DNA of 64,000 nt, from contig NC_089322.1 of assembly GCF_036669915.1 (NCBI RefSeq), positions 12,171,252 to 12,235,251 on the forward strand. The letters are read 5' to 3'. A program made the translations under genes and the position numbers. Each line of letters begins with the position of its first letter. Position 1 is the stretch's first letter. This stretch comes from Pocillopora verrucosa. Its lineage: Eukaryota > Cnidaria > Anthozoa > Scleractinia > Pocilloporidae. The notes under the pieces were generated by a model, which saw nothing but the letters and a program-made list of their open reading frames with translations, did no database searches and was not told where the DNA came from. Of the stretch, positions 1 to 45,216 are shown in pieces.

Positions 1-582
1 CAGAAGTCTAAATTAACTTTGTACTACTTTACTTAAAACAAATAACACTGTCACATACAAAAGCATGCAGCAGTTCAGTTAAAGTTACTGTCTGTAACTT
101 TGTTATTTAATAAATCTATATTAATATGCATCAATTTTATTGGCTTAGATGCAAAAGTAGATGATGTTTTTAAGGTTACAATAAAAAAATTACCAGAGAG
201 TAAGCTAAAGTCTGTCTATTTTTCTCCTCTGTTAGATATGTTACATTACATTGTTCTTGGCCCAAGAAATAGACAGCTGGGGTGTTACAAATCCATATAG
301 TTTACCATGGTGTAGATTGGCTATTAAAAATTTCCCAAGCGGGAAGGCTGCAAATACTCCATAAACCAAGTTTAGTATGCTGAATACCAATCATGGAATT
401 ACATTACTTTCCATTGTGGTTTTCCATTTTTCCAAATTAGGGAAAACGGTTAGAACCAAATTTGTTTAGATACAAATACAAACATTTATTTAGTAGCAAA
501 ATACACAAGAGTGGTTTTCTCACTTTACACAGTGGGTTCTTTTAAAATCCAAGTATGAAAAAAAAGAAAAGAGAAAAGAAAA
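1..582. other. No gene recognised (5' flank)
   Basis: A+T-rich sequence with only short random open frames. A 66-residue frame at 100-300 has no recognisable motif and no splice context. I see no RNA gene here. Confidence 0.5.
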
Positions 583-584
583 AA

Positions 585-772
585 TCCATGTTTGGGAAAA
601 GGAAGATCCCAGTACGTTCACCTGTTGCCAACAAATCCAAATAAGGTTTTGTTTATTTCCAATTACGATGTTCTCACCCAAATTTTGGAATCCAAGTTTG
701 ACATAATAAAAAAACACATTGGTATGAAGACAAAATCCATGTTTGGAAAACTTGTATTATTTCCATGTTTGG
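585..772 (+). repeat. Three scattered copies of TCCATGTTTGG
   Basis: The 11-mer TCCATGTTTGG occurs at 585, 736 and 762, each followed by an A-run. The copies lie just upstream of a helicase remnant. They may be a degraded minisatellite or chance A/T-rich similarity. No function is evident. Confidence 0.4.
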
Positions 773-833
773 AAAATAGTCAACTTCCACACAAAATCCA
801 TATAATACCATATAAAATTCCCAATTAGGAATT

Positions 834-1290
834 TTGCCCAATTTTCCAGTGTATGTCACACTAAGTAGAGTTACCACCTTTGAAGGCTTACCTATAACGG
901 ATCTCTGTGAAAACAAAATTGCCATCCATGCCACTGTTGAGAAAGAGATGGAGCGATTAAGAACTGCCAAACTTAAGCTTTGTATATCACCACTTTATGA
1001 CACAACAAGTTATATTCTAAAAATCTGTTATCTAAATGCAAGGTCACTGCATAGACACATACAAGACATACACGAAGACTTGAACTATTCAAGTTCTGAT
1101 ATCAATGTTTGTGTAGAAACAAGATTCAGTTACCAAGACTCTTGAGACAAATATAACATAATTGGTTACAGTCTTTCAAAATGATAATCCACATAGTCTT
1201 AGATCAAGACCTTTTGGTGGTACAGCTGTGTACAGAAAAATCCCATATTCCCCTGGATATCCCTACTGTCATTGTCCAGTATCAATGGGT
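834..1290 (+). pseudogene. Helentron-type PIF1 helicase C-terminus joined to endonuclease domain (fragment)
   Basis: The frame at 834-1145 begins with the motif YVTLSRVTTFEGLPITDL, typical of the last motif of PIF1-family helicases (Y-V-x-LSRV...GL). It is followed within about 40 residues by LNARSLHRHIQDI, which resembles the start of an exonuclease-endonuclease-phosphatase domain. After a TGA at about 1143, other frames give further endonuclease-like text, such as RPFGGTAVYR at about 1207-1236. Helicase followed by an endonuclease is the C-terminal order of Helentron (Helitron2) proteins, which drive rolling-circle transposition. The Rep part, the helicase ATPase core and most of the nuclease are missing, so this is a dead fragment. 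The TTTTCCAG just before TGTATGTC (about 843-853) could be a splice acceptor. Alternatively it is a host PIF1 pseudogene next to a retroelement, which is less likely given the joined domains. Confidence 0.6.
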
Positions 1291-1846
1291 TAGTATTCTT
1301 TTCACTTCTTCTTAATATAGCCCCCTAACCATTGTCCTCCATAAGAAACTTATCACTAGTTGTTACTAATTCTTTTACTAAATCCGTTTAGTTGACCTCT
1401 TTGTCATAGGACTATCATTGTAGTACTGTTCTGATTTCAAAAGTCATGTTCCTTTTTTCCCCTTCTCTTCAAACAGACTTCATTCACATGCATCATCTCA
1501 AGAGGACATGTGTACATGGCAAAAGCAGTGTCTTGCAGTTCTCCTGAGATGAAGAATACAGCTTAATGAAACAATCTCTCAAGATTACATAAAATCACAT
1601 CTTTCATGTAGCCACAGTTAAACCACATTCTGCACAGTGCATGTTACTTCCACCACAAAGTCATACTTTGATCACTTTAATCTGCTCTCTTATGAAAAAG
1701 ATGTACATGGAAATTTATTCTTCTTTGTGAAAAGTGTATTTTTTCTATACCAACACTGTATTTAATAGATCAACCTCATATATATACCACATTGCCTATA
1801 TACATCTATATACTGTAGAAACATAACTATCATAACTATTATGTAG
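1291..1846. other. No gene recognised
   Basis: Non-coding, A+T-rich. The stretch at 1818-1860 holds a small direct duplication of GTAGAAACATAACTATCA, the second copy ending where the retrotransposon coding frame opens. Confidence 0.5.
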
Positions 1847-3763
1847 AAACATAACTATCAACAACTGGATGAGGTATGTGAATTCCTCTTTCCTAAGATA
1901 ATTCACCAAGAAATATTTATTGATTCCTGCAAACACTACAATGATCTTCTAACAGCGACAAAGACAAACTATTATCGGACTCTGATCAGCTCCTCTGACC
2001 AATCACAACTATTCAAGATGGTATCTCGCCTATTCTTATCGAAGAACATTGCTGCACTCCCTAATAATGATTCATTGGATACATTGACCGAAACGTTCAA
2101 CGATTTTTTTATCAAAAAAATTGAGAAAATAAGATCGGATTTGGACTCCCATACTGCCCAAGCACCCGACATCAACGTCAATTATCCAGTCACCTCGTCG
2201 TTCCAAACTTTTCAACCTGTATCTGCTGATATTGTTCACAAACTTATTGTTCAATCTCCAACTAAGTCTTGTCAACTGGATCCCATTCCAACACGAATTC
2301 TAAAGTCAATTCCACACTTGACGCCAATTATAACCAAGATTATCAACGCCTCCATGGCTAACGGAGAATTTCCTGATCAGTTAAAACAATCCCTGGTATG
2401 TCCATCTTTAAAGAAGCCTTCATTGGACCCGAACTGTCTCTCAAATTACAGACCGATTGCAAATCTATCTTTTCTCTCAAAAACAATCGAAAGGGTGGTC
2501 GCAAATCAAATATACAGATTTATGGCCGAGAACCAGTTATTTCCAGCGATGCAGTCAGCATACCGCAAATACTACTCCACTGAAACTGCTTTAATAAAAG
2601 TCTCAAATGACATCCTAAGAGCTGTAGATCAAAAAGAAGAAGTAGTACTTGTTTTGCTAGACCTTTCCGCTGCGTTCGACACGATCGACCATAACATATT
2701 ACTTGAAAGAATGGAGAAACGTTTCGGATTTAGAGGTATCGCACTAAAATGGTTCAAATCATACCTAGAACATCGTGTTCAGTCAGTGAAGATCAAACAC
2801 TCTATCTCTAAGCCTCGACATATCTCCTACGGCGTACCCCAGGGATCAGTACTTGGTCCACTACTCTTTCTAATGTATACCTCGCCTACAGAAGACATTG
2901 TTGCTGAACATGGCCTAAACTGTATGATATATGCCGATGATTCGCAACTTTACATAAAGATAAACTCCTCTGACAGAATGCTAGGCATGGAAAGATTGAA
3001 ATCATGTGTTAATGCAATCATGGAGTGGGCCAAGAAAAACAGATTGCAGTGCAACCCTTCAAAAACAGAAATCATTCATTTCCTCTCACGCTTCTCAAAA
3101 AATCCTCCTTTCTGTAATATCAATATTGGAGATGATATCATTAATTTATCTAATACTGTCCGAGACCTAGGCGTCACGCTTGATTCTGTGATGAACTTAC
3201 GCTCGCATATAAATTCCATCTGTAAATCGTCGTCTCTAGCAATCAGAAATATTGGTCGCGTTCGTAAATACCTCTCGACGCAGCAAAATGAAAGATTGAT
3301 ACACGCCTTTATCTCATCGAGACTTGATTATTGTAATAGCCTATTGTACGGTCTACCGATTTGTGACATCGAAAAATTCCAACGGATCCAAAACACAGCT
3401 GCCCGCTTGTTAGTCGGTGCCAAATCAAGAGACAGTATAACACCTATACTTAGGAAACTTCATTGGCTCCCGGTCACAAAACGAATTCAATTCAAGATAC
3501 TGTTGATAACATACAAAGCACTAAATGACATGGCTCCAACCTATCTTGTTGAACTTCTTAGTCGATATATTCCAGCACGAAACCTCCGTTCATCAAATAT
3601 GAATCTACTTGAGGTCCCAACAATTCGAACTAAAACGTATGGGCAAAGAGCATTCTCCTACGCAGCACCGTATTTGTGGAACCAACTACCTGAATGCATA
3701 AAAAACGCCGAATCTGTTGACTCCTTTAAACGCTTATTGAAAACTCATCTTTTCAAAAATTAA
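1847..3763 (+). CDS. Reverse transcriptase of a non-LTR retrotransposon, N-terminally truncated
   Basis: RNA-directed DNA polymerase that would copy element RNA at a nicked genomic site. The first ATG is at 2018 (581 residues), but the same frame stays open upstream to the TAG at 1844-1846 and reads like family sequence (for example CKHYNDLLTATKTNYYRTLI), so the true protein began further 5'. Counting from the ATG, motifs appear in order: linker; SNYRPIANL near 145; LLDLSAAFDTIDH near 213-225 with the first catalytic Asp; GVPQGSVLGPLLF near 272; YADD at 305-308 with the catalytic Asp pair; then the long C-terminal region with KLHWLPVTKRIQFK near 488 and a final LKTHLF. No internal stop was seen in this part. 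Without an endonuclease the copy cannot move by itself. It resembles CR1/L2/jockey-like RTs common in cnidarians; exact clade is uncertain. Confidence 0.85.
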   Translation, partial: KHNYQQLDEVCEFLFPKIIHQEIFIDSCKHYNDLLTATKTNYYRTLISSSDQSQLFKMVSRLFLSKNIAALPNNDSLDTLTETFNDFFIKKIEKIRSDLDSHTAQAPDINVNYPVTSSFQTFQPVSADIVHKLIVQSPTKSCQLDPIPTRILKSIPHLTPIITKIINASMANGEFPDQLKQSLVCPSLKKPSLDPNCLSNYRPIANLSFLSKTIERVVANQIYRFMAENQLFPAMQSAYRKYYSTETALIKVSNDILRAVDQKEEVVLVLLDLSAAFDTIDHNILLERMEKRFGFRGIALKWFKSYLEHRVQSVKIKHSISKPRHISYGVPQGSVLGPLLFLMYTSPTEDIVAEHGLNCMIYADDSQLYIKINSSDRMLGMERLKSCVNAIMEWAKKNRLQCNPSKTEIIHFLSRFSKNPPFCNINIGDDIINLSNTVRDLGVTLDSVMNLRSHINSICKSSSLAIRNIGRVRKYLSTQQNERLIHAFISSRLDYCNSLLYGLPICDIEKFQRIQNTAARLLVGAKSRDSITPILRKLHWLPVTKRIQFKILLITYKALNDMAPTYLVELLSRYIPARNLRSSNMNLLEVPTIRTKTYGQRAFSYAAPYLWNQLPECIKNAESVDSFKRLLKTHLFKN

Positions 3764-3955
3764 GCCACCAGATTATTTGATATCGTACGTTGTCAAACAT
3801 ATGCATAACACGTAATAATTCATTAGTTTAGATAGAGTAGCGAATTGCATGTATAGGATTTTTATCGAAATTTTGTTAATTTGTAATTGTAAAGCGCATA
3901 GAGTTCAATTTTAATGCGCTATATAAGAACTTATTATTAAATTAAATTATTAAAT
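1847..3955 (+). mobile_element. 5'-truncated non-LTR retrotransposon (CR1/L2-like)
   Basis: This is a reverse transcriptase frame followed by a 3' untranslated region of about 190 bp. That region carries a GCGC-bounded hairpin-like segment (AAAGCGCATAGAG...ATGCGCTATATAAG, about 3890-3930) and ends in A/T-rich ATTA-type repeats near 3930-3955. The endonuclease and ORF1 are absent, as expected for a copy truncated during target-primed reverse transcription. The 3' end resembles the solitary tail at 40030-40201, suggesting related families. Confidence 0.75.
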
Positions 3956-4260
3956 AACATAAGAAAGTAGTTAGATAAATTATACACATATATCAAAACT
4001 TTCTGATGCATTGTTCCACATGTGCTCTCACAAATGGTTCATTTACAAAAAGACCACCCTACCAGCTTGAGTTCTGTGACACTGAAGTCATTGATTGCAT
4101 TGTGAAATAAAATTCAATTTAACCTTTTACATTAACTGCAGCAACTCTTGCACATGCATTGGCTAGTTTTCATTGTCAATTGTGGACGGACACATGAATT
4201 TGTAATTTTTGAGAAGCATCAACAAGTGAGCAGACAATTTCACTATTTGTTATCATAAAA
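3956..4260. other. No gene recognised
   Basis: A+T-rich, no open frame of note. A 14-bp match to the outer part of the next element (GGACGGACACATGA at about 4184) hints at a decayed relative of that element. Confidence 0.4.
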
Positions 4261-4548
4261 AACAAATTGACATCAGTTTTTCATGCATCTGTCCTGTTAG
4301 TGATCATGGATTTAATCATAACATTGTCAGAATAGTAGCTGTAGGTCCACAAGGTGATGGCCACGTGGATCCACAATTTTCCATGCATTTTTTCCGTTAT
4401 TAGCAGTGAATTTCGTCATAACATTGTCAAAGTAGTCTGTGGATCCACTCGGCTATTGCCTCGTGGACCCCCAGCTAGTTTGACAATGTTGTGACAAAGT
4501 ATATCATCAATAGGGGACGGATGCATGAAACACTGACATCAACTTGTT
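4261..4548. repeat. Fold-back / MITE-like element with long imperfect inverted arms
   Basis: The left arm (4261-4374) and the reverse complement of the right arm (4439-4548) align with only scattered differences. Outer ends: AACAAATTGACATCAG against AACAAGTTGATGTCAG. Middle: TTTCATGCATCTGTCC against TTTCATGCATCCGTCC. Inner: GGCCACGTGGATCCAC against GCCGAGTGGATCCAC. A 64-bp spacer (4375-4438) separates them and repeats part of the left arm (CATAACATTGTCA). There is no coding capacity. The single strand could fold into a hairpin of about 110 bp. A target-site duplication could not be fixed. Confidence 0.75.
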
Positions 4549-4845
4549 AATTGGAGATCAGCTGTCTAACAGGTATAAGATGTAACCCCCACAGCAAGGA
4601 GGGAAAACTTCCTTTTGTTCATTTCCTAAAGATTACAAAAATCATTCTAAACCTATTTTCATTCTATTTGCTCATTCTCGACTTTCTCATTACCACTAGG
4701 GGTGGACCATTCGATTTTTAAGGGGAAATGTCGTTGAATTCAGCAAAAAAAAAGTTCCTAGAGACTGAATAAAAGTCACTACATGGCGTTTAAAAAATTA
4801 GAGCCTTATACACTGTCCCAAAAAATTTTCCTACTGGGAACAACT

Positions 4846-4878
4846 CACCCACCCACCCACCCATCCCCTCCCCCTTCA
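4846..4878 (+). repeat. (CACC)n microsatellite
   Basis: Five adjoining CACC/CCAC units followed by a C-rich run. Confidence 0.8.
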
Positions 4879-7271
4879 GAACTCAAATGGTCTGCCAGTA
4901 GGACATCCTTTTAACCCCATAAAATTGTGTAGATTTGTTTTAGAATTCACTAGGGACATCTCCATGTTGCAGGAGATTGCAAACAATGATTACCCAAAAT
5001 TTTGCACGTGCCAAGCCTCAAGATAACAGTCCTTGACCTTTGTTGCCCTATGGATCGAAAAACACCAATCAAAATGCCTGATTTTCTAACAGAACTATGA
5101 ACCCTGTTTTCTCAGTGGTAAGTTCTTTCTATATATTAACCATCAAAACCACCACCCTCTTATTCAAACTGCCAAATTGGTTCAGAGAATTTCTGTCCAC
5201 CCATGTTCGTGTTAGAGACATGCTGCCAAAGGTGAAAGCTGCTAAAAAGCATTGAAAGACTGGTCTGAGAGTGTCTCAGTTAGTCAGATGTCCACAAGTA
5301 ATAGTTCCACATGAGTCTGCCCTCTAATACGCCAGGCAAAATAAACCAGTTTGCATTGCCCCCAAAAAACCACGCTTCCATGATTGCCTGTGCATCAACT
5401 ATCCCCACCAAGACAAAACAAAAAGAACAGAATGGACTACAGCACCCTGGTTTAGCAGGCTGAAGAGAGCACAAAGGAAGCCTTTTGCTATTCAAAGAAC
5501 AAGCAACCATTACTAAATGAAGGTCAAAATAGCCACACACCAATTAAGTTGCAGAAGTTTACCTTCACCAAAGAATGAGCAAAACTTGTCAAAAATGACA
5601 TGACTAATATCAGCCAACCTCTTCCTACTGAATATTAATTTCAGTTCTAGCCACCTGCTGCAAAGTCATACCCAAACCTAACCCTTGACTAAATCAAGCA
5701 ATTGTCACACCATGGGGACTTGCTTACCTTCCAAGGAAAACTACTTTACCAAGCTGATTATACCCTTATTGAAAAAAAAAACCTATTTTTGGAGATACCA
5801 CAGGAACAATAACTGTCAGTCTGTGGAGAGAATTCATTCGAGTGGTACAGGTAGGAAAAGTGCACCAAATTGCTCCTCTGCAAGTTAAAACCTGGAATGG
5901 TCTAGAGAGGTTGTCTGGAAATTCAATGTGACGGCCTCTTCAAATGAAAATTTTCTTTTATGTTTACATAGCTCCACTGATAGAGGTCACAAACATCTAA
6001 TGCCTAACCAGAATCTGTAGTTTATCATTAACATGAAAACCTTGGTGCTAAATGTCCATTGTGATTGATTCCAAACTTTGAGGAAGTAATACATTGTAAC
6101 TCTGCAACAAGGTGGTTTTGCTTTTATTAGAATATGATACTTATGTTTGGTAGCAATACATGTGTATTAGGCCTTTATTTGTATACTACCACTCCTTTTC
6201 AGTTAATTGTTTGGTTTTAGTTAACTCATCACAATATTGATATAGATAAAAAATTATACTCTTTCGATGAGCTGAAAACAGCAAGGTGCCTTTTCATGTA
6301 TCACCAGCGCAAAAGTAATAACTCAAATACAAATGTTAACTAGGCTCAGCAACAATAGATCACACTAGCAACCAATCAGATGGACACGAAGAAGGTTGTG
6401 CTAATCGATACACACTGTATCTGACCAAAATAAAAAAAAGCTTGGATATTTCTATGTAAATTGATAAACACTAACAAAAGTGCATTCCTGAGAGAGAATT
6501 CGGCTAAAGGACAAATTTTGATAGCACACACTTCACTTAGTCAATACTTTCAAATTTACCTACTGTCAGTTTGTTGATTTCCTGTGAATGTTTCTCTCAT
6601 GTATACATCACAAATAAGTAATAACATGATTTCTCATGTGATAAGCACTTGTAAATTTTTCAAATACTTCAAACTGCACACACCCTATGACTTCATAACA
6701 TTTGTTGTTCGTGAAAAATTTACTTGTGCTTATTTAGAATGCTTAGATCAAACACTTAGATCAATTTAGCTTAAACTTTGTTGAGTTTTTATGAAGACAG
6801 TTCAATAGAAGTGACATTTGTTAAGTCTATAGTTAGAGCTACTTGATGTGGATTAGATAACCATCAGGCATCCTTGGAGACCCAAGGTTAAATCAAATCT
6901 GTAGACCTCCTAAAACCACAGTCTTAACAGATCAGTTCCAAACTGTCACAGTCATTCTGCATTTTGATTGGCATTTTGCTCTTGACCAACTGAAAATAAA
7001 ATTTTGTGCCCTGATGGACAAAAGAAACCTATGCTCAGCATTGTCTTACTTTACATGTATGTATTGTCCACAATTAGTCATACATTCAAACTAAATCAAG
7101 CTCCGGATGGCTTCTAGTGTAGACTAAATCATTTCTCAAATGTCCTGGACCCATCTACAAAGTTTTTTCCTTGTGTTCTGGTACACAAAATGTGAATAAT
7201 ACTCATATGAAATGCTTCCTTAGAGTTAATTTCACATTTTTGTTAATATCACATTTTCACTGTGGGAATAG
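4879..7271. other. No gene recognised
   Basis: About 2.4 kb of A+T-rich DNA. Open frames at 5280-5543 (minus), 5685-5888 and 6584-6769 (plus) have no recognisable motif, repeat or splice support. I see no transposon ends. Confidence 0.5.
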
Positions 7272-8045
7272 GTGTGGCGTCTGCCACAGCGACAGTAGGC
7301 AATGTTCGTGTAATGAATGCCCACCTCAGAAAAGAAAAAAGGCATCTAAGAAAAAAGGCATCTAAGTCAACAGCCTCCAGTCAACAGCCTGCAGATACGT
7401 CGCACGACGATCTAAAGAAAAAGTACGAGTCACTGCAAAAGGACTACAAAAGAGTGGGTCAGGCCTTCCAGAACCAGCAGGAACAGAACCAGGAGCTGAC
7501 GGCATTGCTAGAGGAACACAAGAAAGAGGCTGAAGAGCTAGCCAACCTTGTGCAGAACAAGGACAAGGTCGTTAATAACCTCGAGAGGCACCTCTTAAAC
7601 GCAAAGAAGGTCATCGCAGAACTCCGAGCGGAGGTGCGACGCAGAGGCCAACCCACGCCACAAGAAGACCCACCCACATCACAACAGCAACACCAGCAGA
7701 CCGCAGACATTCGCGTCATCACCCACAGCCTGGCCAACATACACGAACGATATGAACAGGTTCTCCAGACGATGAAAGAGAACAGATGCAGCAGCATGGC
7801 CTGTGCCTTCCCTCTTGCAGGCTGTCCTCGGAGCACACTACAAGACTTCGTGGCGATAGCAGAACTGAAAAAGGTCGACTCGAGGGGAACCGGACCTCGT
7901 CCTCCACGACCAAGAAGTTAAATCGGTGCGAGATCTGGAGGTTGTCTGTCGCAAAAGACTTCGGCGCTACATCCCGGTCATGAGCAACATGAGGAGAGAG
8001 GGGCAGCTGTTGCCAATGAAGTTCGAGGCACGATTCTACGAGTGA
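7272..8045 (+). pseudogene. Unrecognised Cys-rich / coiled-coil protein gene, broken by two frameshifts
   Basis: I do not recognise a named family. From a possible splice acceptor (GGGAATAG at 7264-7271) the frame reads a compact Cys cluster, CGVCHSDSRQCSCNECPP, spaced like a zinc-binding knot, then a Lys/Arg patch. A tandem duplication of a 16-bp unit (7335-7366) shifts the frame. The next frame (to about 7880) holds a strong heptad-type coiled coil (about 7400-7640, K/E/Q/L-rich), a Gln-rich linker, then CPRSTLQDFVAIAEL, which could be a helix-turn-helix. A second 1-bp shift near 7878-7884 moves to a frame ending ...VMSNMRREGQLLPMKFEARFYE at the TGA of 8043-8045. Removing both shifts leaves one uninterrupted reading path, so it was a real protein gene. 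It is clearly richer in G+C than its surroundings and intronless as far as seen. Cellular role is unknown; DNA or RNA binding is a guess. A histone-type stem-loop follows 31 nt after the stop. Confidence 0.6.
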
Positions 8046-8076
8046 AGTATCTTGTATATTTCACCACTCACAAAAC

Positions 8077-8092
8077 GGCTCCTTTAGGAGCC
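8077..8092 (+). promoter_or_regulatory. Histone-mRNA-like 3' stem-loop
   Basis: GGCTCC-TTTA-GGAGCC forms a perfect 6-bp stem with a 4-nt U-rich loop. It is preceded by CACAAAAC and followed by ACCAAA, both in keeping with the flanks of metazoan replication-dependent histone stem-loops (CAAA before, ACC after). It differs from the usual form only in the loop-closing pair, C-G in place of U-A, a paired change that keeps the stem. It starts 31 nt past the stop at 8043-8045, a histone-like spacing. The purine stretch GAAAGG at about 8105 could stand for the histone downstream element. In histone genes this loop binds SLBP and directs cleavage without polyadenylation. Confidence 0.6.
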
Positions 8093-8194
8093 ACCAAATC
8101 TATGAAAGGCTATTCTTGTCAATGTAGTGCACATGTTGGATGTTGTATCAAGCAAAAACCGAGAGAAAACATTAAGGTTTGTGTTAACGTTTAA

Positions 8195-8346
8195 CCGACC
8201 AGCTACCGACAGGTTACCGACACATTACCAACAGTCGGCCGACTGTCGGCCAACAGGTAGCCTATAAACGGCTGACAATCGGCCAACTGTCAGCTGACTG
8301 TGGGCTGACTGTCGGCCGACAGTTGACTGACAGTCAGCCGACAGGT
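8195..8346. repeat. Palindromic GTCGGCCGAC minisatellite
   Basis: About 150 bp built from overlapping 10-14 bp units around GTCGGCCGAC/CTGTCGGC, many individually self-complementary (CTGTCGGCCGACAG is a perfect palindrome). It is much richer in G+C than the flanks. Units alternate orientation, so the array can form many small hairpins. Confidence 0.75.
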
Positions 8347-9594
8347 TTTTTGGGGAGCTCTTCCTCACAATTACCGAAAAGTCAATCAACCTACAAACTT
8401 CAGAACTCAATTCCACTTCATTATCCAAACAAAATCATGACTGAATCTATCAGGCCACTATGGGAGATGATGCTGAGGTTTTTCAGTTCCTAACATCCTC
8501 AGGTTACATGTGCAACCTTTGTTGTCAAAATGAGACCTTCATAACAAAGTTTGGCCAATAATCCTCATCTTGAAAATGAACATTTCAGGACTATTGTATG
8601 CTAGTTATCTTGTTTTATTGATGAACAGGAACAATATTGAAAACCATCTAACCATAATTGGCTACTAGCTCTTCTGATAGAAACTCAATAAGACACCAGA
8701 CACTAAAAAGTAGCTCAATTTTGTAAGCCACATATGTACGCAATGCAGACCTGTTTTTAAATTATTATTATTTTACAATAAATATAACTTCACGATTATT
8801 TAATTCCGTTTCAGTAAGTTTTGTTTAGTTTACTCTTTTGGAACTTTCAAAATATGATGACACATCCAATTAGCTCTTAGGTCATAATTCCTTTTTTCCA
8901 AGGAAAAGTCCACTTTCCTTCCATGGATGTGGGTGGAAAAGTTTGTCATAATTTAAACTCATGGACTGAAGAAAATAAATGCTGGGTGTTTCTTCTTAGC
9001 AATCTTTTCAAGAAAATGTTTGGAACTGACCTTTTAACCTATTATTTTGAGAAAGATATAGAACTAAAATTGATGATTACAAAACATTAATTTTTTTAGT
9101 GCTGTCATGAGTCTTGGGAAAAGCATTTCTCTGGAGAAAGTCCAGAGCCACAGGACAATGCCAAACATCTTTGTCATCCCAGAATCCATCTTAGTTCACA
9201 TGCCAATCTTTATCCGCAACAGCCCCCACCCAAAAAAATAACATTTGATATTCTTGATTCAACTTCATCTAACATCTAACAAGATGAAAACTGTGATTTT
9301 GCACCTATCATCAGCCAAACATCCCCAAAGCCTATTAGTGACACTTCTGTTGTTGGTGAAGATGATGATGATGATGATCCTGCAATGCCACATTAATTTG
9401 CAGTTAAAGCTGCAATGGCACCTGATATTGTACCCGACCCTGTACCCATAAAGCATACTTTTACCAGGATCATTAAGCCGCCTACTTAGTTCAAGGACTT
9501 TATATGAACCATGGAGATTTAAAAGGACACAGATTCGCTGAATTCTACCGCAGCCAGTATGGACAAATTATGAACGTTATTCACACAAAACACA
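8347..9594. other. No gene recognised; weak retroelement-like tail
   Basis: A+T-rich. A (GAT)n run lies at 9360-9378. Between 9390 and 9510 one frame reads PDIVPDPVPIKHTFTRIIKPP, with stops just before and after. The IIKPP-type ending resembles C-termini of LTR-retrotransposon integrases, but the evidence is too thin to call a gene. Confidence 0.4.
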
Positions 9595-10045
9595 TCCAAA
9601 CTTAATAATTTGTAGACAAACTTAACAAAAAGCCAGCAAACTTAATAAAATGCATGCAAACTTTAAAGAGCGCTGACAAACTTAATAAAGGACATGCGAA
9701 CTTAACAAAATGAGTACAAACTTAATAATTTGTGGACAAACTTAACAAAAAGCCTGCAAACTTAATTAAATGCACGCAAACTTTAAAAAGCGCTGACAAA
9801 CTTAATAAAGGACATGCAAACTTAGCAAAATGCATACAAACTTTATGACAGGCACGTAAACTTTAAAAATAGCATGCAACGTTGACATGAAACGTATACA
9901 AAAAATTAAACACACAAAGTTAAAATGAAATACACAAACTTAAAACGAGACAAACTTAATAAAACATGCACAAACTTAAAATGAGACATGCAAACTTAAT
10001 AAAACTTACACAAACTTAAAATAAGACAAACAAACTTAATAAAAC
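9595..10045 (+). repeat. Tandem repeat: ~20-bp CAAACTTAATAAA units with a 120-bp higher-order period
   Basis: The core CAAACTTAA recurs about every 20 bp. At 9600-9840 six variant monomers form a block that is repeated: CTTAATAATTTGTAGAC at 9602 returns as CTTAATAATTTGTGGAC at 9722, exactly 120 bp later, with the intervening monomers in the same order. From about 9840 the order breaks down and monomers become simpler. No coding potential. Confidence 0.85.
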
Positions 10046-10672
10046 GTGCATGTCACGTTGCTGTACAGAGAACGCTTTAGAACATTATATGACCTTTTGT
10101 TTTCTTAAAACGTAGCCTTGTTTCGTTTTGATTGCGTGATTATAAAACATCCTTTTTTGGCTAGCTGCACAAAGAGTTGTTTCAGTTAAGTTTCCTTTAC
10201 GTCATAGAGGTATATTAGGCCTTTTTTCATGCGAATATTTTAGTTTTAAGGAGTTGTCCCTGGAGCAAAGAGGAGTTTTATAGGAGTCTTACGGAATTTT
10301 TTTTTACAACTTGGAGTTTTCTCCTCCCTGGAGCCAAGATCAGATGTAAGTCACGATCGTTAGTTGTGTTTTCTATCGTCAGATTTATAATTTAGCTCGT
10401 TTCCTTAGCTTAGACAGATCGTGCATTCCTTTTTAGCTTTCACTGCAATTGTTGTAACAAGTCAGCTACCCTGATTACATGATTTAGTCCAATAAACGAG
10501 TGTAAGAGTCTGCTGTCCATCCCGTACTTCACTGTGGTTGACCTGGTGGACTCAATTGCGCTGCACCCCATGTCTGCTGTGCTGGGAACGCGACAGTAAA
10601 AAGTCTGATTGTCAAAGACACAAAGGAGTCAAAAAACAGATAGAGGTAAGCTGTATCGTAGAGATTAAGTAA
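10046..10672 (+). other. Possible 5' LTR/leader of the BEL element
   Basis: No open frame. It lies directly upstream of the BEL gag start and contains an AATAAA-like AATAAACG at 10491. I could not find a matching 3' copy near 20.4 kb, so an LTR assignment is unproven. Confidence 0.3.
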
Positions 10673-11029
10673 ATGGCCCCAATCATGAATGGAGCAAATA
10701 AAGGAGAACCACCAGTTCACCAAAAGATCGACGATTGTGATCCTGAACTAAAGAGTAAGAACTTTGTCTACAAGGGCTTAAGAGAATGCTGTCGAGGAGA
10801 AACATTCCGAGATAGCTTGCGTGTATAGATTGTTTAAAGAAACAATGCAATCTGCTGAGGAGCTTAGTGAAGGATCAGATTTCGAAATTACCTTGCGTGA
10901 TCTGCGAGTATCTGAGGAGCTGAAGATGAAAATAGATGAATTGCGAGACCTTTACATGCAAGACAAAAACAAATACCTTAGAGACAAAGAACCACTTCTA
11001 ACTAGCAAGAGCCTAACTCTCTACCAAGC
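10673..11029 (+). pseudogene. BEL/Pao gag, 5' part (interrupted)
   Basis: An ATG at 10673 opens a 52-codon frame ending in TAG at 10828-10830. The overlapping frame continues the protein with a charged, helix-rich stretch (for example ELKMKIDELRDLYMQDKN), so one frameshift lies at about 10825. The frame runs into the left end of the Gypsy element at 11030. Joining 11029 to 15672 over one copy of the CAAGC target gives an unbroken reading frame (LTLYQ then AYKLVEEIK). This shows the Gypsy landed in a then-open gag. Gag would form the capsid; identity rests on position in a BEL element rather than a domain match. Confidence 0.6.
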
Positions 11030-11173
11030 TGTTATGGTTTTCCAGTGTGTTGTATGTTGTGTGTTACCATATATGGTTTGCTCATGCGCACGCATGAGGC
11101 TTCATTAAACAGTCTTTTACTTACCGAACCGCCATGTTGTTTGGGGTGTGTAGTTCTTAAGTAATACATGACA
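11030..11173 (+). repeat. 5' LTR of the Gypsy element
   Basis: 144 bp, TG...CA termini. It carries GCTCATGCGCACGCATGAGG, where the 3' LTR has A for the central C of GCACGC, the only difference seen. The LTR would supply promoter and polyadenylation signals. Confidence 0.95.
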
Positions 11174-11177
11174 ATTT

Positions 11178-11194
11178 TGGCGACGAGGATGGGA
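11178..11194 (+). other. Primer-binding site, tRNA-Ser type
   Basis: TGGCGACGAGGATGGGA begins 4 nt after the 5' LTR. From memory it is complementary to the 3' end of metazoan tRNA-Ser(GCU), ...CCTCGTCG plus CCA, with one mismatch. The position is standard for minus-strand priming. Confidence 0.65.
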
Positions 11195-11261
11195 TATTAA
11201 GGGACCTTTTTGGCTGCTAAAAGTGAAGACATCCCTAAACTAAATCCACATAACGTCCACG

Positions 11262-14200
11262 ATGGCCAGCGATGCAAATACGGCACCAAATCCAGTTCGT
11301 AACATCGGAAAAGTTCAAAAGTTCACTGTGGGAACTGACTTCGAGGCGTATACAGAACAGTTAGGATTCTTCTTCGTGGCCAATGGAGTGACCGACGCGA
11401 AACAGAAGAAAGCCATCCTGTTAACCAATCTTCCCACTGAAACGTACCAACTGGCGAAAGATTTGATGGCTCCGACCTTGTTAGGAGAAGATTTTCTCAC
11501 GTACAACGCAATCGTAGAGCGTCTCCGCGAACAATTGAAGCCACAGAAGTCTGCTTTAGTAGCCAGGTATGAGTTTGACAACCGAGCACGTAACGCAGGA
11601 GAAACGGTGAGTCAATATGTTGCTGTTTTGAAACATCTAGCTATGGATTGCAAATTTAACGACGCCATGCGTTTGGAAAGGCTTAGAGATAGACTGGTTT
11701 CAGGTATTCGAGATAAGAGAATGATGTCAGAGCTTTTGAAACTTAAGCTTGAGGAACTAACATTTGACATTGCTGTTGCAAAGTGCTTAGCTATTGAGCA
11801 ATCTTACAAGGATGTTGAAGCTCTCCAGGGGAATAAAGCGTCAGAATCAATCGATCTATTAGCCAAATCAAAGCCAGGCAAGAAGCTTAAATTCAAGAGA
11901 GAAGCCAAGCTTTCAGAGAAAAAGGGTTCTTTTTCCCCCAAGAGAACGGGTGATCAAAGTTGCTACCGCTGTTTGGGAATTCATGATCACAAAAGTTGTC
12001 CATTCAAGAAAGAAAAATGCCACCACTGTAACAAGACTGGTCACATTGTGAGGGCTTGTAAATCAAAGAAAAAAGAGACACAAGTTTCCCAACCCCCAGT
12101 AAATTATGTAGACAGCGATGACGGGGACAGCGATGATTATTTGGCATCCCTTGAGGTTAATAATGTGGGTGACAAGGATCACGTAATATGGGTCAACCCC
12201 GAAATACAGAGAAAGGTGGTCAAGATGGAACTAGACACAGGGTCAGCGGTGTCTGTACTTCCATACAAACAATATAAGGAACATTTTAATCATGTCAAAC
12301 TTTCAAAGAGCCTTGTGACACTTAAGACATACACTGGGCAGAAAATCACACCTAAGGGAGAGATGAGATGTAATGTTAAGTTCAAGGGCCAGGAAAAAGA
12401 GTTAAACCTACAAGTTGTTGAGACGCAGGGACCAGCACTGTTTGGGCGTGACTGGCTGTCCAACATTCAACTGAACTGGGGTGAAATCAAAACCTTTAAG
12501 CTTAGCAAGACTTCAGAAGGGGGTATGGCACGCAAAGTGGATCAGCTACTACAGAAGTACGAGTCTGTATTCTCCGAAAATCTGGGCACACTTAAAGGCT
12601 ACAAGGCGGATTTGAAGGTCGAGGAAGGCTGCCAGTCCAGCTTTCATAAACCACGCCAAGTGCCATACGCACTCCGCCCCAAAGTAGAAGCAGAATTGAC
12701 ACGCTTAGAGAAGGAAGGTATTCTCTCTAAAGTAGAATACAGTGAATGGGCGACCCCAATTGTCCCGGTAGTCAAGCGAAACGGATCGGTACGAGTTTGT
12801 GGCGATTTTAAGGTCTCAGTGAACCCAGTACTTCTTGCAGAACAGTACCCTCTGCCACGTATAGAGGATATTTTTGCAAATTTGGCTGGCGGTAGACATT
12901 TCAGCAAGCTTGACCTTCGCCAAGCTTATCACCAGATGGAAGTAACCGAAAGATCCAAGGAACTCCTTATGATTAATACACACAAGGGCCTTTTTCGATA
13001 CAATCGCTTAGTCTTTGGCATCTCTTCGTCTCCAGCCATTTGGCAGCGTGCCATAGACCAGGTATTACAGGGAATACCTGGGACCCAGTGCATCCTTGAT
13101 GACATGATTGTCACAGGCAAAACCGATGAAGAACATTTGGAGAACCTGGAGAGTGTACTCAAGCGATTACAAGATGCGGGTCTGAAGGCTAACAAGGAGA
13201 AGTGCGAGTTCTTCAAAGATAGAGTTCAGTTTTGTGGGCATGAGATCGATAAGGAAGGTCTACACAAGACACAAGAGAAGATTGAAGCAGTGGTCAGTGC
13301 ACCAAGACCTGAGAATGTGTCACAGTTTCGCTCATTTTTAGGGCTCGTAAACTATTACAACCGTTTCTTGCCCAATGCGTCTACAGTTCTCCACCCACTT
13401 CACCAGTTGTTAGAGCAAAACAACGAATGGCAGTGGACTGAACGGTGCGAGCGAGCGTTCACTGAGGCTAAGCGTATGATTACATCTGAGCAGGTGCTAA
13501 CGCACTATGACCCAGCATTACCGGTTAGGCTGGCATGTGATGCTTCACCAACTGGCATCGGCGCGGTTCTTTCACACGTCATGTCCGATGGTAGCGAAAG
13601 GCCAGTAGCTTTTGCGTCCCGATCGTTGACCAAGACTGAACGACGGTATGCACAGATAGACAAGGAGGCATTGTCCATTGTGTGGGGGGTGAAACGATTT
13701 CATGTTTACCTCTATGGGAGACGATTTACGCTCATTACAGACCACAAGCCCCTCACTGCCATCTTCCACCCAGAAAAGGGAGTTCCAGCCATGACTGCTG
13801 CAAGGCTTCAGCGATATGCATTGTTCTTGTCTGGGTTCGACTATATCATTGAGTATAAGAGTACAACCAAACACTGCAATGCCGATGGACTGTCGCGGCT
13901 CCCTCTCCAGCAGAAAGAGCGAGAAGACTTGGAGGTGGATTCAACAGAGGTGTTCCACGCCTCTCAGTTTGTGCCATTACCTATAACCAGTGAAGCAGTG
14001 GCAAGAGAAACACGTCGTGACGTTGTCCTAGCGAGGATACATGATTCTATTGTGAAAGGATGGTCTACTCGTGTGGAGGGAGACAAGCCTTATTACGAGC
14101 GACGCAATGAACTGACAGTTCACCAAGGCTGCATCCTATGGGGAATGAGAGTGGTAGTTCCCAATAAGTTACAAAGCAGAGTGTTAGAGGAACTTCATGA

Positions 14201-15365
14201 TGGGCATCTGGGCATGGTCAAAATGAAAGCACTCGCGAGGAGCTACGTATGGTGGCCTAATATCAATGGTCATCTGGAAGAGCTAGCGAAAGGCTGCAGC
14301 GGGTGTCAGCAAAACCAGAAGATGCCTGCTAAAACACCACTACATCCGTGGGAGTGGGCCACTACACCATGGCAGCGTATACACATCGACTACGCAGGGC
14401 CATTTCAGAACTCGATGTTCTTAGTGGTTGTCGACGCACACACCAAGTGGCCAGAAGTGGTTCCAGTCAAGTCAACTTCATCAAGTTCGACTATCGAAAT
14501 TCTACGCGATTTGTTCGCCAGATTTGGAATTCCAGAACAGATAGTCAGTGACAATGGTACACAGTTTGTTTCTGAGGAATTCCAGACATTTGTCAAGTCC
14601 AATGGCATCCGCCATATAACTTCAGCACCGTACCATCCAGCGACGAATGGTCTTGCGGAAAGGACAGTACAAACCTTCAAACAGGCTTTGCGTTCCATGC
14701 GTCAAAGCCCCAAGCCAGTGAGGGAGAAGTTGGCGAAGTTTCTCATAGCTCACAGGAACACTCCACACTCCACCACCGGTGAGAGCCCAGCACAGTTACT
14801 CCTGGGAAGACCATTGCGTACTCTCCTAGATTTGGTGAAACCTAACTTAAACCGTAAGATGGTTAACCAACAACACCAGCAGAGCATTAAGGCAGCGATT
14901 GACAAGGGTAAACAGTATCGCCAGTTAGAGATTGGTGACTCAGTTATGTCACGGGATTATCGAGGGGATCTGAAGTGGCGTCCAGGGCTGATTGTTAACA
15001 AAACAGGTCCGCTGATGTATGAGGTACAGGTGGCACCGGGACTGATCTGGCGCCGACATATTGATCAGTTGAGACCAACGGCAGTTGGACACACAGTTGA
15101 AAGCACTGACGCCGACTGTAGTGTTGAAGTCAGCCAACCTGAAGTGGCCAACACACCACTGACCCCAATTACATCAAGTACTCCAACCACTGAGGGCGGC
15201 ACAGCTCCAGGAGGTTCCAAAAAAGATCAACCAAAGATGGTTCCTGTTTCCACACCTACGGTACCTGACCCTCCTGATGCTAAACCAGCTACAGTTAGTC
15301 TGATGGTCAAAATGCGACAACACCCTCAGAGAGTTCGCAGGGCACCACAGAGGCTTGATCTCTGA
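11262..15365 (+). CDS. Gypsy Gag-Pol polyprotein (1367 aa)
   Basis: A single frame encodes capsid and all enzymes of an LTR retrotransposon, with no frameshift between gag and pol. Order by residue: Gag/capsid about 15-190; a double Cys-His knuckle about 234-266, the second canonical (CHHCNKTGHIVRAC); aspartic protease with LDTGS, Asp near 325; reverse transcriptase about 470-680 with KLDLRQAYHQ and the catalytic pair in CILDDM near 613; RNase H from about 755 (CDAS near 760, DHKPL); integrase zinc-binding HHCC (GHLG near 981, CSGCQQ); integrase core with Asp near 1043, Asp near 1097 (SDNGTQF) and Glu near 1133, giving D-35-E; then a basic C-terminus ending RRAPQRLDL. All catalytic residues are present and no stop interrupts. 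The ATG at 11262 is the first good start after the primer site. Domain order and single-frame layout resemble the Mag-like/K02A2.6-like animal Gypsy group; the clade is inferred. Confidence 0.95.
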   Translation: MASDANTAPNPVRNIGKVQKFTVGTDFEAYTEQLGFFFVANGVTDAKQKKAILLTNLPTETYQLAKDLMAPTLLGEDFLTYNAIVERLREQLKPQKSALVARYEFDNRARNAGETVSQYVAVLKHLAMDCKFNDAMRLERLRDRLVSGIRDKRMMSELLKLKLEELTFDIAVAKCLAIEQSYKDVEALQGNKASESIDLLAKSKPGKKLKFKREAKLSEKKGSFSPKRTGDQSCYRCLGIHDHKSCPFKKEKCHHCNKTGHIVRACKSKKKETQVSQPPVNYVDSDDGDSDDYLASLEVNNVGDKDHVIWVNPEIQRKVVKMELDTGSAVSVLPYKQYKEHFNHVKLSKSLVTLKTYTGQKITPKGEMRCNVKFKGQEKELNLQVVETQGPALFGRDWLSNIQLNWGEIKTFKLSKTSEGGMARKVDQLLQKYESVFSENLGTLKGYKADLKVEEGCQSSFHKPRQVPYALRPKVEAELTRLEKEGILSKVEYSEWATPIVPVVKRNGSVRVCGDFKVSVNPVLLAEQYPLPRIEDIFANLAGGRHFSKLDLRQAYHQMEVTERSKELLMINTHKGLFRYNRLVFGISSSPAIWQRAIDQVLQGIPGTQCILDDMIVTGKTDEEHLENLESVLKRLQDAGLKANKEKCEFFKDRVQFCGHEIDKEGLHKTQEKIEAVVSAPRPENVSQFRSFLGLVNYYNRFLPNASTVLHPLHQLLEQNNEWQWTERCERAFTEAKRMITSEQVLTHYDPALPVRLACDASPTGIGAVLSHVMSDGSERPVAFASRSLTKTERRYAQIDKEALSIVWGVKRFHVYLYGRRFTLITDHKPLTAIFHPEKGVPAMTAARLQRYALFLSGFDYIIEYKSTTKHCNADGLSRLPLQQKEREDLEVDSTEVFHASQFVPLPITSEAVARETRRDVVLARIHDSIVKGWSTRVEGDKPYYERRNELTVHQGCILWGMRVVVPNKLQSRVLEELHDGHLGMVKMKALARSYVWWPNINGHLEELAKGCSGCQQNQKMPAKTPLHPWEWATTPWQRIHIDYAGPFQNSMFLVVVDAHTKWPEVVPVKSTSSSSTIEILRDLFARFGIPEQIVSDNGTQFVSEEFQTFVKSNGIRHITSAPYHPATNGLAERTVQTFKQALRSMRQSPKPVREKLAKFLIAHRNTPHSTTGESPAQLLLGRPLRTLLDLVKPNLNRKMVNQQHQQSIKAAIDKGKQYRQLEIGDSVMSRDYRGDLKWRPGLIVNKTGPLMYEVQVAPGLIWRRHIDQLRPTAVGHTVESTDADCSVEVSQPEVANTPLTPITSSTPTTEGGTAPGGSKKDQPKMVPVSTPTVPDPPDAKPATVSLMVKMRQHPQRVRRAPQRLDL

Positions 15366-15511
15366 ACTTTGTTTTATTCTGTTCGTTTTCTTGTTTAAAG
15401 GTCGTTCTTACCTTTCGAACTGTGGTTACCGGACACTGTTGGTTTATTTTATGTTTTCCTTGAAATTGTATTTTAGGGCTTGTTTTGAAAACTAGGGACA
15501 GATCGTTTAAT

Positions 15512-15522
15512 GTGTGGAGGAA
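15512..15522 (+). other. Polypurine tract
   Basis: GTGTGGAGGAA lies immediately before the 3' LTR at 15523, the expected place for plus-strand priming. Confidence 0.6.
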
Positions 15523-15666
15523 TGTTATGGTTTTCCAGTGTGTTGTATGTTGTGTGTTACCATATATGGTTTGCTCATGCGCAAGCATGAGGCTTCATTA
15601 AACAGTCTTTTACTTACCGAACCGCCATGTTGTTTGGGGTGTGTAGTTCTTAAGTAATACATGACA
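15523..15666 (+). repeat. 3' LTR of the Gypsy element
   Basis: 144 bp, matching 11030-11173 except GCAAGC for GCACGC. Followed at once by the target duplication CAAGC. Confidence 0.95.
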
Positions 15667-16800
15667 CAAGCTTACAAACTAGTAGAAGAAATAAAGGGTA
15701 GACAATCTGACACATTGTTGGAGACAGGATCGGGTCTATCTTATCAATCTAGCTGCAATAAAGTCTCATCATGCGCATCTACTACAAGCAACGCAGCCAA
15801 AATGAAAGCACTTGCTGAAGCAGCAGTGCGAGAGGGCACAGAATTAAAAAAGGGTATTGCCGCAATGGAACAGAAGCGCAGGAAATGCGAAGCTGAGATC
15901 GAGCAAACATGCTAAAAGAAAGATCGTGATTGCGCAAAAGCTAAAAGCAATTGAACAGGCGATGGAGGAAGAAGATACAGGCAACAAAATTGAAATTGCG
16001 GGTATTCCAAACACAAAAGGTGGAGAATGAACATTCACATGGCTTAACTCAACGTCACAAGAAACCCCCCAGCTGGGAACCGATTTGACAAAACAGAAAA
16101 CCCTTTCAAAGTGCCCGAAAAGCCGCCTGCAAAATTGTGTGCTGCTGCTATTGAGCAGTCTATGGGCTGAGTTGGAGGCACTTCAGAAGCGCGGCTGCAA
16201 TAACAAGAGTGCTATTAGAATGCATGAATAAAACAGCCCCATTCAACAACTTAGAGAACGCAAAACTGCGAGAGTTCCCTGACCTCTGCACGGACATGGA
16301 GAGCCAAATGAGCTATCTGCCCGGCCTTGCTTGCCTAATCTTTCCTAATGCAATACAACTAATTCCTGAAAGGCTGCCCCTATTTTATGTCAAAAATGGG
16401 AGAAAGAAATCTCTAAACACACGGAGTGCTTAGCCTTCCATGCTAAATCTCTTGATGAGGGGACCGAATGGTTTCTTGCAGCCGGACTTTGCTACTGCTG
16501 CCTGTCAAAGGGACACATGGCCAGTGACTGTAAGGAGAACATAGAGTGCAGCATATGCAAGGACAAAGTCATGCAGCTCTCCTTCACAGAGAGAGAACAA
16601 GGCCCCCTACCCAAGGTGGAGAAGCCATTGACTCAAAATGCAGATCGATGTGTCATGCTATAGAAGGCGGTGCCTCATGTAGTAAACTGCTTTGGGTCGA
16701 TTTGTTAAGTAAGAAAAAGCCGCACGCAATCCATCGAGTGTGCACCATTATAGATGAACAAAGCAATTCGTCCCTGATCAGCACTGAGCTTGCGGATTAA
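15667..16800 (+). pseudogene. BEL/Pao gag 3' part and protease region (degenerate)
   Basis: The frame to 15915 continues the interrupted gag with Ala/Lys/Glu-rich helical sequence (NAAKMKALAEAAVREGTELK), then frames change repeatedly. Near 16485-16560 two Cys-His knuckles are legible (CYCCLSKGHMASDC and CSICKD), typical of BEL gag C-termini. Near 16738-16797 the text VCTIIDEQSNSSLISTELAD resembles the start of the BEL protease, whose active-site Asp lies in an IID-QSN context. Several stops and shifts make it non-functional. Identity is supported by the pol remains that follow. Confidence 0.65.
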
Positions 16801-17379
16801 TTGAGGGCAGAGGGACCTGAAGAAAAGTACTTTCTTACCATGTGCAGTGGCACAAAGGAGACCAAATACAGATGGTGCATGACAAATGTCATTGTTCAAT
16901 CCATCAGCAGAGCAACAGCAGACCTGCCTACTCTCATCAATTGGGGCAATATCCCTCAGGACAAACGAGAGATTCCCACACCTTCAGAAGATCACCAACA
17001 AGATTCCACCCCTCAAGGGGACTGCTAACATTCATCTCCTCAGAGGAGATGCCCCAGAGCTTTTTAAAGTTCAAGAGTTTAGGAACGGACCTAAAGGAAC
17101 CCCCTAAGCACAAAAGCTTTCTTTAGGTTGGACAATATTCGGTCAGATGTGCCTAGACCTCGTTGGGGGCCCCACACACATGTTCATCCGCCGTACAAAT
17201 CTCTTATTAGCCAGCCTCACTAGCCCAAGGAGAAGAATGGTAAAACTGCAATGTTACGAACTTATCCCACGCCCCAACCAGTTACGAGTTAAGGATAGTT
17301 TCACCAAGCAGGATCAAGGTGTGGAAAGCGACATCTTCTGAAACACTCAAGAAGACAACGATGTTAGCCTTTCCTGTGA
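16801..17379. other. Degenerate BEL spacer
   Basis: Probably protease-to-RT linker of the same element, but frames are too broken to assign. Overlapping open frames at 16801-17126 give no family signal. Confidence 0.35.
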
Positions 17380-43269: not shown

Positions 43270-45216
43270 TACCCACGAGGGAAAGAGTGTGCCGTTTATG
43301 GCTGTCACAACAGCTATTACAATGACAAGGGGCTCTTCGCCGGTTACCATTTTTTCAGTTTTCCAACCGACCCCAAGACCAGAAATCGCTGGTGTAACCT
43401 TATAAAGCGGCAACATGGAAAGGATGACTTCAATGTAACTGCTACAACTGTTGTTTGCAGTGAACATTTTAGACAAGAAGATATTATAAGAAAATTGACC
43501 CGCAGGTACTTAAAGAAAGGTATGTGACATGCAAAAACAGATATAAAAAAGTCATATATAGTAAATATTTCATTACAGCTGCATTATCAGCTAAGTTTTT
43601 GTTCCTTTTTACATTAAGCTTTAAAATTGTAACACTGTATAGCTTTTGACTGAAGGTTGGCTTTTCACATCGAAGGAAATATAGTTACCCCAATACAACA
43701 TTTCAATACCACTGGATTACTGTTGTGCATCATTAATTGTACCAAATTCCCTAGTGCCATATAGATGTACTGAGATCAAAAACATTTAAACTGACATTAC
43801 AGTTAAGTATTTTTCATAACTGTATCAAAATGACCATTAACACCACAACATGTACATTTATTATGGTCATGTAATTATTTTGATTTTTATTGCATTTTGT
43901 TTTAAGGTGCTGAGCCATCTCAGTTTTCATGGAGCGTGCCAAAAAAGTCTCAAAAAGCTCCTCCAAGGCGAACCCAGACTAAAGTAGTTTTAGCTCAGGA
44001 AATGGATGTTGCAGACTCCTCGAAAGTCACTGAAGACGCAATAATCATATCAGTACCACCTGAAATAGTTTCCACCGCAGTCAGCAGCAGTCAATGTTCA
44101 AATTCATTAGCTACTGATCTGGATCGAGCTGAAACCTCTAAAGGCAATGTTGTTGAACAACTACAGAGGCATATTACATAACTGGAACTAAAGTTAGCTG
44201 ATCGTGAAGAAAGTTGGCAGAGATGGAAAAAAGAGAATGAGATTTTGCTAGGGCGCCAATTTTCCTTAGACAAAATAAAGGATGATAATTCAGCAATCCT
44301 ATTTTACACTGGGTTTCCTTGCTATGAAGCACTAATAAGTTTTTTCAAGTATCTTGAGCCAAAATTGGGGAAAATGCAGTACTGGAAAGGAGAACACTTA
44401 GTGAGAGAGAGCCTGCCTTATCAAGAGGATGAAAATAGAAATAAGCCTGGACCTACCAGGAAATTAACATTTCTTGATGAATTTCTTTTAGTATTGATGC
44501 GACTGAAGGCTGGATTATTCGTGCAGGACCTTGCAGACAGGTTTGGTGTTAGTACAAGCCTTGTGTCCAGAATATTTATAACCTGGATCAATTTGTTGTA
44601 CTTGGAACTCAAAGACCTTTTCCCTTTTCCATCACAAGAGTTGGTACGCAAAAACATGCCAGATGAGTTTGCCGAGTTTGCAACAACTAGAATAATATTG
44701 GACTGCACGGAGATATTCATTCAGCGTCCCTCTGCCATGCTTGCGCAGTCTGAAACTTGGTCAGACTACAAGCACCACAATACTTGGAAGCAACTTGTGG
44801 GAATCACTCCAAATGGGCAAGTCACCTTTCTTTCAGACCTCTGGGGTGGACAGGTGTCGGAAAAACAGATAACCAGAGAAAGTGGAGTGCTAGATTTATT
44901 GAATAGTGGTGACAATGTTATGGTTGACCGTGGCTTCGACATAAAGGACATTGTACCTGATGGTGTCACGGTTAATATGCCCCCTTTTTTAGCCGGACGA
45001 GATCAACTGACTGCATCAGAGACAGAGGAAACTATGACCATCGCCTCTGTGCGAATACACGTGGAGAGGGCAATTGGTAGGATCAAGACTTATTATATTT
45101 TGGATGGGAACTTACCCAACACTTTAAGCCCTTACGCAACACAAATAGCCACAGTATGTGGACTATTGACAAATTTTCTTCCTCCATTGCTGCCCCCTGC
45201 AAAACCAAAACCCTAA
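43270..45216 (+). pseudogene. THAP-domain DDE transposase (ISL2EU-like), one internal stop
   Basis: Exon 1 (about 43270-43519) encodes a THAP zinc finger: CAVYGCHNSYYNDKG, then FPTDPKTRNRWCNLI and VVCSEHF, giving the C2CH ligands. It ends AAAG before GTATGTG. The exon from 43907 (after TTTTAAG) continues in phase (GAEPSQFSW...). A TAA at 44179-44181 is the only break before the stop at 45216. After a coiled coil (about 44180-44260) come a helix-turn-helix (LKAGLFVQDLADRFGVSTSL), then the DDE_Tnp_4 nuclease: Asp in ILDCTEIF near 44700, Asp in MVDRGFDI near 44926, Glu in HVERAIGRIK near 45062. All three acids are present. No in-frame Met precedes the THAP Cys after the TAA at 43267, so a 5' exon or start has been lost or lies further upstream. 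A convergent YqaJ gene follows, a pairing typical of ISL2EU transposons. Confidence 0.8.

Follow-up and report, generated by a model that had tools for sequence, protein, structure and literature searches.

Histone-type 3' stem-loops behind transposon genes in the scleractinian Pocillopora verrucosa

Histone genes are almost the only animal genes known to have a stem-loop mRNA ending. Among the closest described relatives of the locus reported here are DNA transposons. In the accessible portion of PMC8101967, Merlin elements are described as having ends that start with GG and target duplications of 8 or 9 bp, and the words "histone", "stem-loop" and "accessory" have 0 occurrences in that portion. 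The accessible portion of PMC2872659 deals with piggyBac-related coral elements, which are another group. In the titles and abstract openings of the open-access papers searched, no report was found that joins transposons with the histone stem-loop, SLBP or U7.

The window is a 64-kb stretch of the P. verrucosa genome, and the features of interest in it are listed in Table 1. A first-pass annotation of this DNA had read a coiled-coil gene that ends in a histone-type stem-loop. Such a loop does stand behind a coiled-coil-like gene (gene A), but this gene belongs to a DNA transposon and not to the host. By its sequence, the unit is a dead, truncated and frameshifted copy of a Merlin-type DNA transposon. 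The bounds originally proposed, 7272 to 8110, need to be moved outward on both sides: 7272 is no start, because homology begins upstream of it, already within coding sequence, and the right end is that of the transposon. No left terminus of this copy was found in positions 1-20000 of the window. The gene A remnant consists of two gene A matches, 84% and 81%, in two frames; its open frame departs from the frame that ends in LLPMKFEARFYE and the stop codon, while the copy at locus L019 stays in one frame throughout, so the frameshift was correctly recognized. The G+C content is indeed high, 0.52 for 7262-8046 as compared with 0.39 across the window. The gene was also rightly called non-histone: the window open frame and the L019 gene A have no histone family among their Pfam matches, and the Pfam matches of gene A are all weak and below cutoffs, mostly to coiled-coil families. 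Solved structures resembling gene A numbered 0 up to an E-value of 0.1. Elsewhere in the window, long open frames are present at 2018-3763, 11262-15365, 40772-43000 and 44245-45216, of which two resemble LINE reverse transcriptases, one a Ty3-type polyprotein and one a Harbinger-like transposase.

Table 1. Features of the transposon copy, in window coordinates
Feature	Position	Strand	Basis
5'-truncated copy of a Merlin-type DNA transposon	7254..8375	+	Homology to L019, L020 and L021 begins at 7254; right terminus CACAATTACC ending at 8375
Gene A remnant (Cys-rich N-terminus, then coiled-coil-like protein)	7254..8045	+	Open frame 7262-7921, then shift to the frame ending at TGA 8043-8045
GGCTCC-TTTA-GGAGCC, a histone-type stem-loop with ACCA directly after it (8093-8096)	8077..8092	+	Site scan, folding, Rfam; identical to host H3/H4 loops
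Weak candidate downstream element AAAG...TGTCAA (tentative)	8105..8122	+	Read from the letters; fits neither the strict nor the loose host motif
Subterminal CCGACAG-type repeats	8200..8337	+	Sequence reading, homology comparison
Right terminal inverted repeat	8338..8375	+	Same 38-nt end, inverted, at the opposite end of complete copies

The stem-loop itself, GGCTCCTTTAGGAGCC, is as first described: it lies in sense orientation, preceded by CAAAAC and followed by ACCA, and 31 nt separate it from the TGA, which is in the frame of the gene's C-terminus. It is the sole such site in the window with up to 2 mismatches allowed, the chance expectation at this stringency being 0.03 per 64 kb. Its folding energy is -11.4 kcal/mol (z -4.5), a value equalled by 0 of 200 shuffles. 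The Rfam model RF00032 matches 8072-8117 with 36.5 bits, and by the Rfam gathering threshold of 34 it is a genuine histone-type 3' stem-loop. RF00032 also scores above cutoff in other transposon loci, and these scores are like those of host histone loops. The host H4 genes (L053-L055) and H3 genes (L054, L055) carry the same 16-nt loop as the window, followed by ACCA; the loop of one more H3 gene, at L053, is a variant. The C-G closing pair of the stem had been taken for a compensatory change that shows selection. It is no evidence of selection, because the host H3 and H4 loops have the same sequence.

When the window segment 8000-8200 was compared with the 353-Mb genome, at least 43 matches were obtained (40 scored of 74 candidates). 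Complete copies have inverted repeats that begin with GGTAATTGTGAAGAAGAGCTCCCC, that is, with GG ends, at both termini, and CCGACAG-type subterminal repeats inside them. Among 21 scanned loci, 17 end pairs were found, and all 17 are flanked by a direct repeat of 7-10 nt (8 nt in 11 pairs, 9 nt in four, 7 nt in one and 10 nt in one) in a scan that tolerated shifts up to 3 nt. The complete copies are therefore bounded by inverted repeats and target duplications, and the family displays the 5'-GG terminal inverted repeats and the 8-/9-bp target site duplication by which Merlin elements are recognized. Two copies contain additional sequences. First, the gene A of L018 harbors an insert at 4008-4181 with long inverted repeats (gggcctatttacacgg...); it is probably a further small element that sits inside the transposon. 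Second, an open frame at L019:3138-3617 lies immediately upstream of gene A; it may be part of a RecQ-type helicase.

Gene A is not the only gene of this lineage with a histone-type loop. The short copy L027 has a second loop on the opposite strand, behind a different coding tail that ends in PFDNLLEAIAEFCPPN and a stop; L058 and L059 carry the same tail and loop. In the diverged element L057, gene A and an IS1595-like transposase are found on opposite strands, pointing apart, with a loop behind each of them. The gene A of L057 is 27% identical to that of L019 over 194 residues and 38% over 42 residues. Its degraded transposase pieces match PF12762 (E-values 0.0062 to 0.22) and NF033547 (0.021 and 0.11), all below cutoffs. 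With the L057 transposase as query, matches were found at 10 places, and a divergent gene A match adjoins the transposase at 4 of these 10 loci, L057 itself being among the 4. The transposase on C12 ends in DRFNHMLSHIAEIVPPN and a stop, with a degenerate loop 27 nt further on; its tail is similar, by eye, to the second tail of L027. The second gene of the lineage is thus very probably the transposase, given the divergent layout at L057 and the resemblance of the C12 tail to that of L027, even though the domain scores of the degraded pieces are weak. In gene A and the transposase, the distance from stop to loop is some 23-34 nt.

The same hairpin is found in other repeats. One of them is a second dispersed transposon, represented by L041 and L049, whose ends (GGTATCCGGTTAGATCGCTCC) are unrelated to those of the window family and which is flanked, by eye, by 8-bp duplications at several copies. 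A protein piece of L049 contains the MULE transposase domain PF10551 (E-value 3.7e-13; 50.2 bits, cutoff 27.6). The last open frame of this MULE stops 34 nt ahead of an exact loop, and the loops of L041 and L049 score 39.6 and 40.3 bits with RF00032. The reading frames suggest that the MULE transposase gene has an intron, which would be unlike typical histone genes. L045-L048, L050, L051 and L056 are also of the MULE family, across which exact loops stand behind the last exon or are kept in short copies. The loops read behind gene A, transposase and MULE genes lie in the sense orientation of the gene and are of the TTTA type; an A-rich stretch precedes them on the 5' side, and ACCA mostly follows. 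An exact histone loop and a host-like downstream motif are also present in a third repeat (L042, L043, L044), two copies of which, L043 and L044, show no difference over 3059 bases. Finally, L052:1509 is a single exact loop with a host-like downstream motif and no recognized gene ahead of it.

How well the loop is retained is best judged from diverged relatives. Gene A has 90 matches in the genome, with 28-100% identity, some of them without a stop in the matched stretch, and the first-pass view of the window copy as one member of a larger family holds. Among the 66 of these 90 that were classified, 47 reach residue 265; 12 of the 47 have a recorded loop or tail, and 7 of the other 35, loci without a previously recorded loop, were read over 150 nt beyond the match. 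A loop with at most one change was present in five of the seven: L060 (53% protein identity to gene A), L061 (55%), L064 (42%), L065 (50%) and L066 (28%), the last with an exact loop and AAAAGTCAATGTCCAAC downstream. L063 retains only a relic within the 150 nt, and L062 has no loop there. L062 belongs to a group with a recurring 128-residue frame. The matches at C13:7617828, C14:22328171, C10:16912463, C8:15419908 and others cover only gene A residues ~171-273 at 35-42% identity, often in a 128-residue open frame without stops; L062 is the one of these that was read. In two further relatives of gene A, RF00032 matches lie 28 and 32 nt beyond the gene A match. On the transposase side, a loop was seen at 6 of 6 loci examined, exact in L027, L058 and L059 and degenerate in L057, L067 and L069; at L067 the reading comprised the loop relic and not the coding tail. 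The expectation that homologues keep the loop is therefore borne out in many of them, including most of the diverged relatives sampled, and fails at L062, at L063 and at L021, where the loop has been lost (the one locus among the 20 from L018 to L037 without a loop within 2 substitutions).

Near copies of the gene A tail, 25 in number, were compared as well. Their loop core departs from the majority at 5 of 650 sites; the upstream flank does so at 110 of 1225 and the downstream flank at 144 of 2202. As a sign of constraint on the core these figures are no more than suggestive, since recombinant ends raise the values of the flanks and a dead copy has no use for an mRNA. We argue for selection on the loop from two other observations: deeply diverged copies have retained it, and within a single transposon lineage it follows two genes that are unrelated to each other. 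These observations also bear on the possibility that an ancestral element took up histone 3' ends which are now functionless and merely copied along. Passive capture of this kind would account for the loop in short copies that have lost their genes, and for the similarity of the loop and its adjacent sequence to host histone tails. Against it stand the loops of at most one change behind relatives of gene A that share only 28-55% of their protein sequence, the loop behind a second, unrelated gene, and the host-like downstream motifs found with the loop in the MULE family, in the third repeat and at L052. We regard passive capture as unlikely.

Alternatively, the palindrome may have its role at the DNA level, perhaps by forming a cruciform or offering a binding site during transposition, instead of serving as the 3' end of an RNA. 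Short copies that lack most of the coding sequence kept the loop and still moved, as this possibility would predict. The constant sense orientation, the TTTA-type loop, the A-rich 5' flank and the usual ACCA are features of an RNA ending, the Rfam histone model scores the loop like host histone loops, and the same hairpin occurs in the MULE family with its different ends; a role at the DNA level appears quite improbable. Both passive capture and a DNA-level role are less likely than use of the histone pathway. A host family of coiled-coil protein genes with histone-type mRNA ends, compatible as it is with 90 gene A matches that include stretches without a stop, is highly improbable given the gene A matches that adjoin the transposase, and it is rejected for the subfamily of the window, whose complete copies have inverted repeats at their ends and target duplications around them.

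The explanation that we favor is that transposon mRNAs of this kind receive their 3' ends from the SLBP/U7 histone pathway of the host, which would tie the expression of the transposase and its partner to S phase. We consider this to be probably correct. The ancestral element would have had two divergently transcribed genes, gene A and the IS1595-like transposase, each of which stops shortly before a loop identical or nearly identical to that of host histone genes, with a host-like downstream element in some copies. Host SLBP would bind the loop and the U7 snRNP the downstream element; the mRNA would be cut a few nucleotides past ACCA and would have no poly(A) tail. Transposase and partner may then be made mainly when histones are made, to the benefit of the element. 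There is perhaps an even chance that a broader statement is true as well, namely that the transposase genes of at least two unrelated superfamilies of DNA transposons have taken over the replication-dependent histone mRNA ending of the host. The transposition proteins would then come from tail-less mRNAs confined to S phase, when newly replicated DNA lets copy number rise.

The sequences downstream of the loop give a mixed picture. The motif AAAG..TGA[CT]CAA is found 12-13 nt past the loop in all seven host histone tails. In its strict form it is present in 4 of 8 tails of the transposon set (twice in the MULE family, in the third repeat and in L052) and absent from all four gene A and transposase tails tested; a looser form fits the two transposase tails and neither of the two gene A tails, both forms having been picked after the sequences had been seen. 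Of the sequence evidence, it is this missing host motif that speaks most against full histone-type processing of the gene in the window. Between its stop and the end of the transposon, over 330 nt, the window copy is free of AATAAA and ATTAAA. AATAAA sits near the loop in L058, L041, L060, L064 and L066, so poly(A) ends are possible at these loci. An RF00066 search of the genome gave 0 matches to U7, and 0 of 14 control genomes matched either, which makes this search uninformative. The RF00032 census of the genome yielded at least 74 matches, at least 69 of them above cutoff (75 scored of 73,233 candidates), and one control genome matched, below cutoff; since the window's own loop was missed, the census is a lower bound and its misses carry no meaning. 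Sorted by position, the 74 comprise 31 clustered matches, 6 in gene A tails and 37 solitary ones, only some of the clusters having been checked as histone genes.

If transposons do depend on the histone ending, there would be a means by which some cut-and-paste elements could become active in step with DNA replication. SLBP/U7 would have natural substrates other than histone mRNAs, host genes would have a mobile source of histone-type ends, and cell-cycle-coupled expression would be a strategy of mobile DNA.

Compared with the 3' ends of replication-dependent histone mRNAs, the window gene has the same 16-nt loop, A-rich 5' flank, trailing ACCA and a stop 31 nt away; it differs in that it encodes no histone and lies in mobile DNA, and in that the strict host downstream motif is missing from gene A and transposase tails. 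The lineage shares with the Merlin superfamily (IS1016/IS1595-related) the GG-starting inverted repeats and 8-9-bp target duplications, as described in the accessible portion of PMC8101967, and its relatives contain IS1595-like transposase pieces, albeit below cutoffs. In contrast to that superfamily, it has a second, divergent gene, gene A, and histone-type loops behind both genes. Likewise, the L041/L049 family resembles MULE transposons in its PF10551 domain and, by eye, its 8-bp flanking duplications, and it is set apart from them by a last exon with a histone loop 34 nt beyond the stop.
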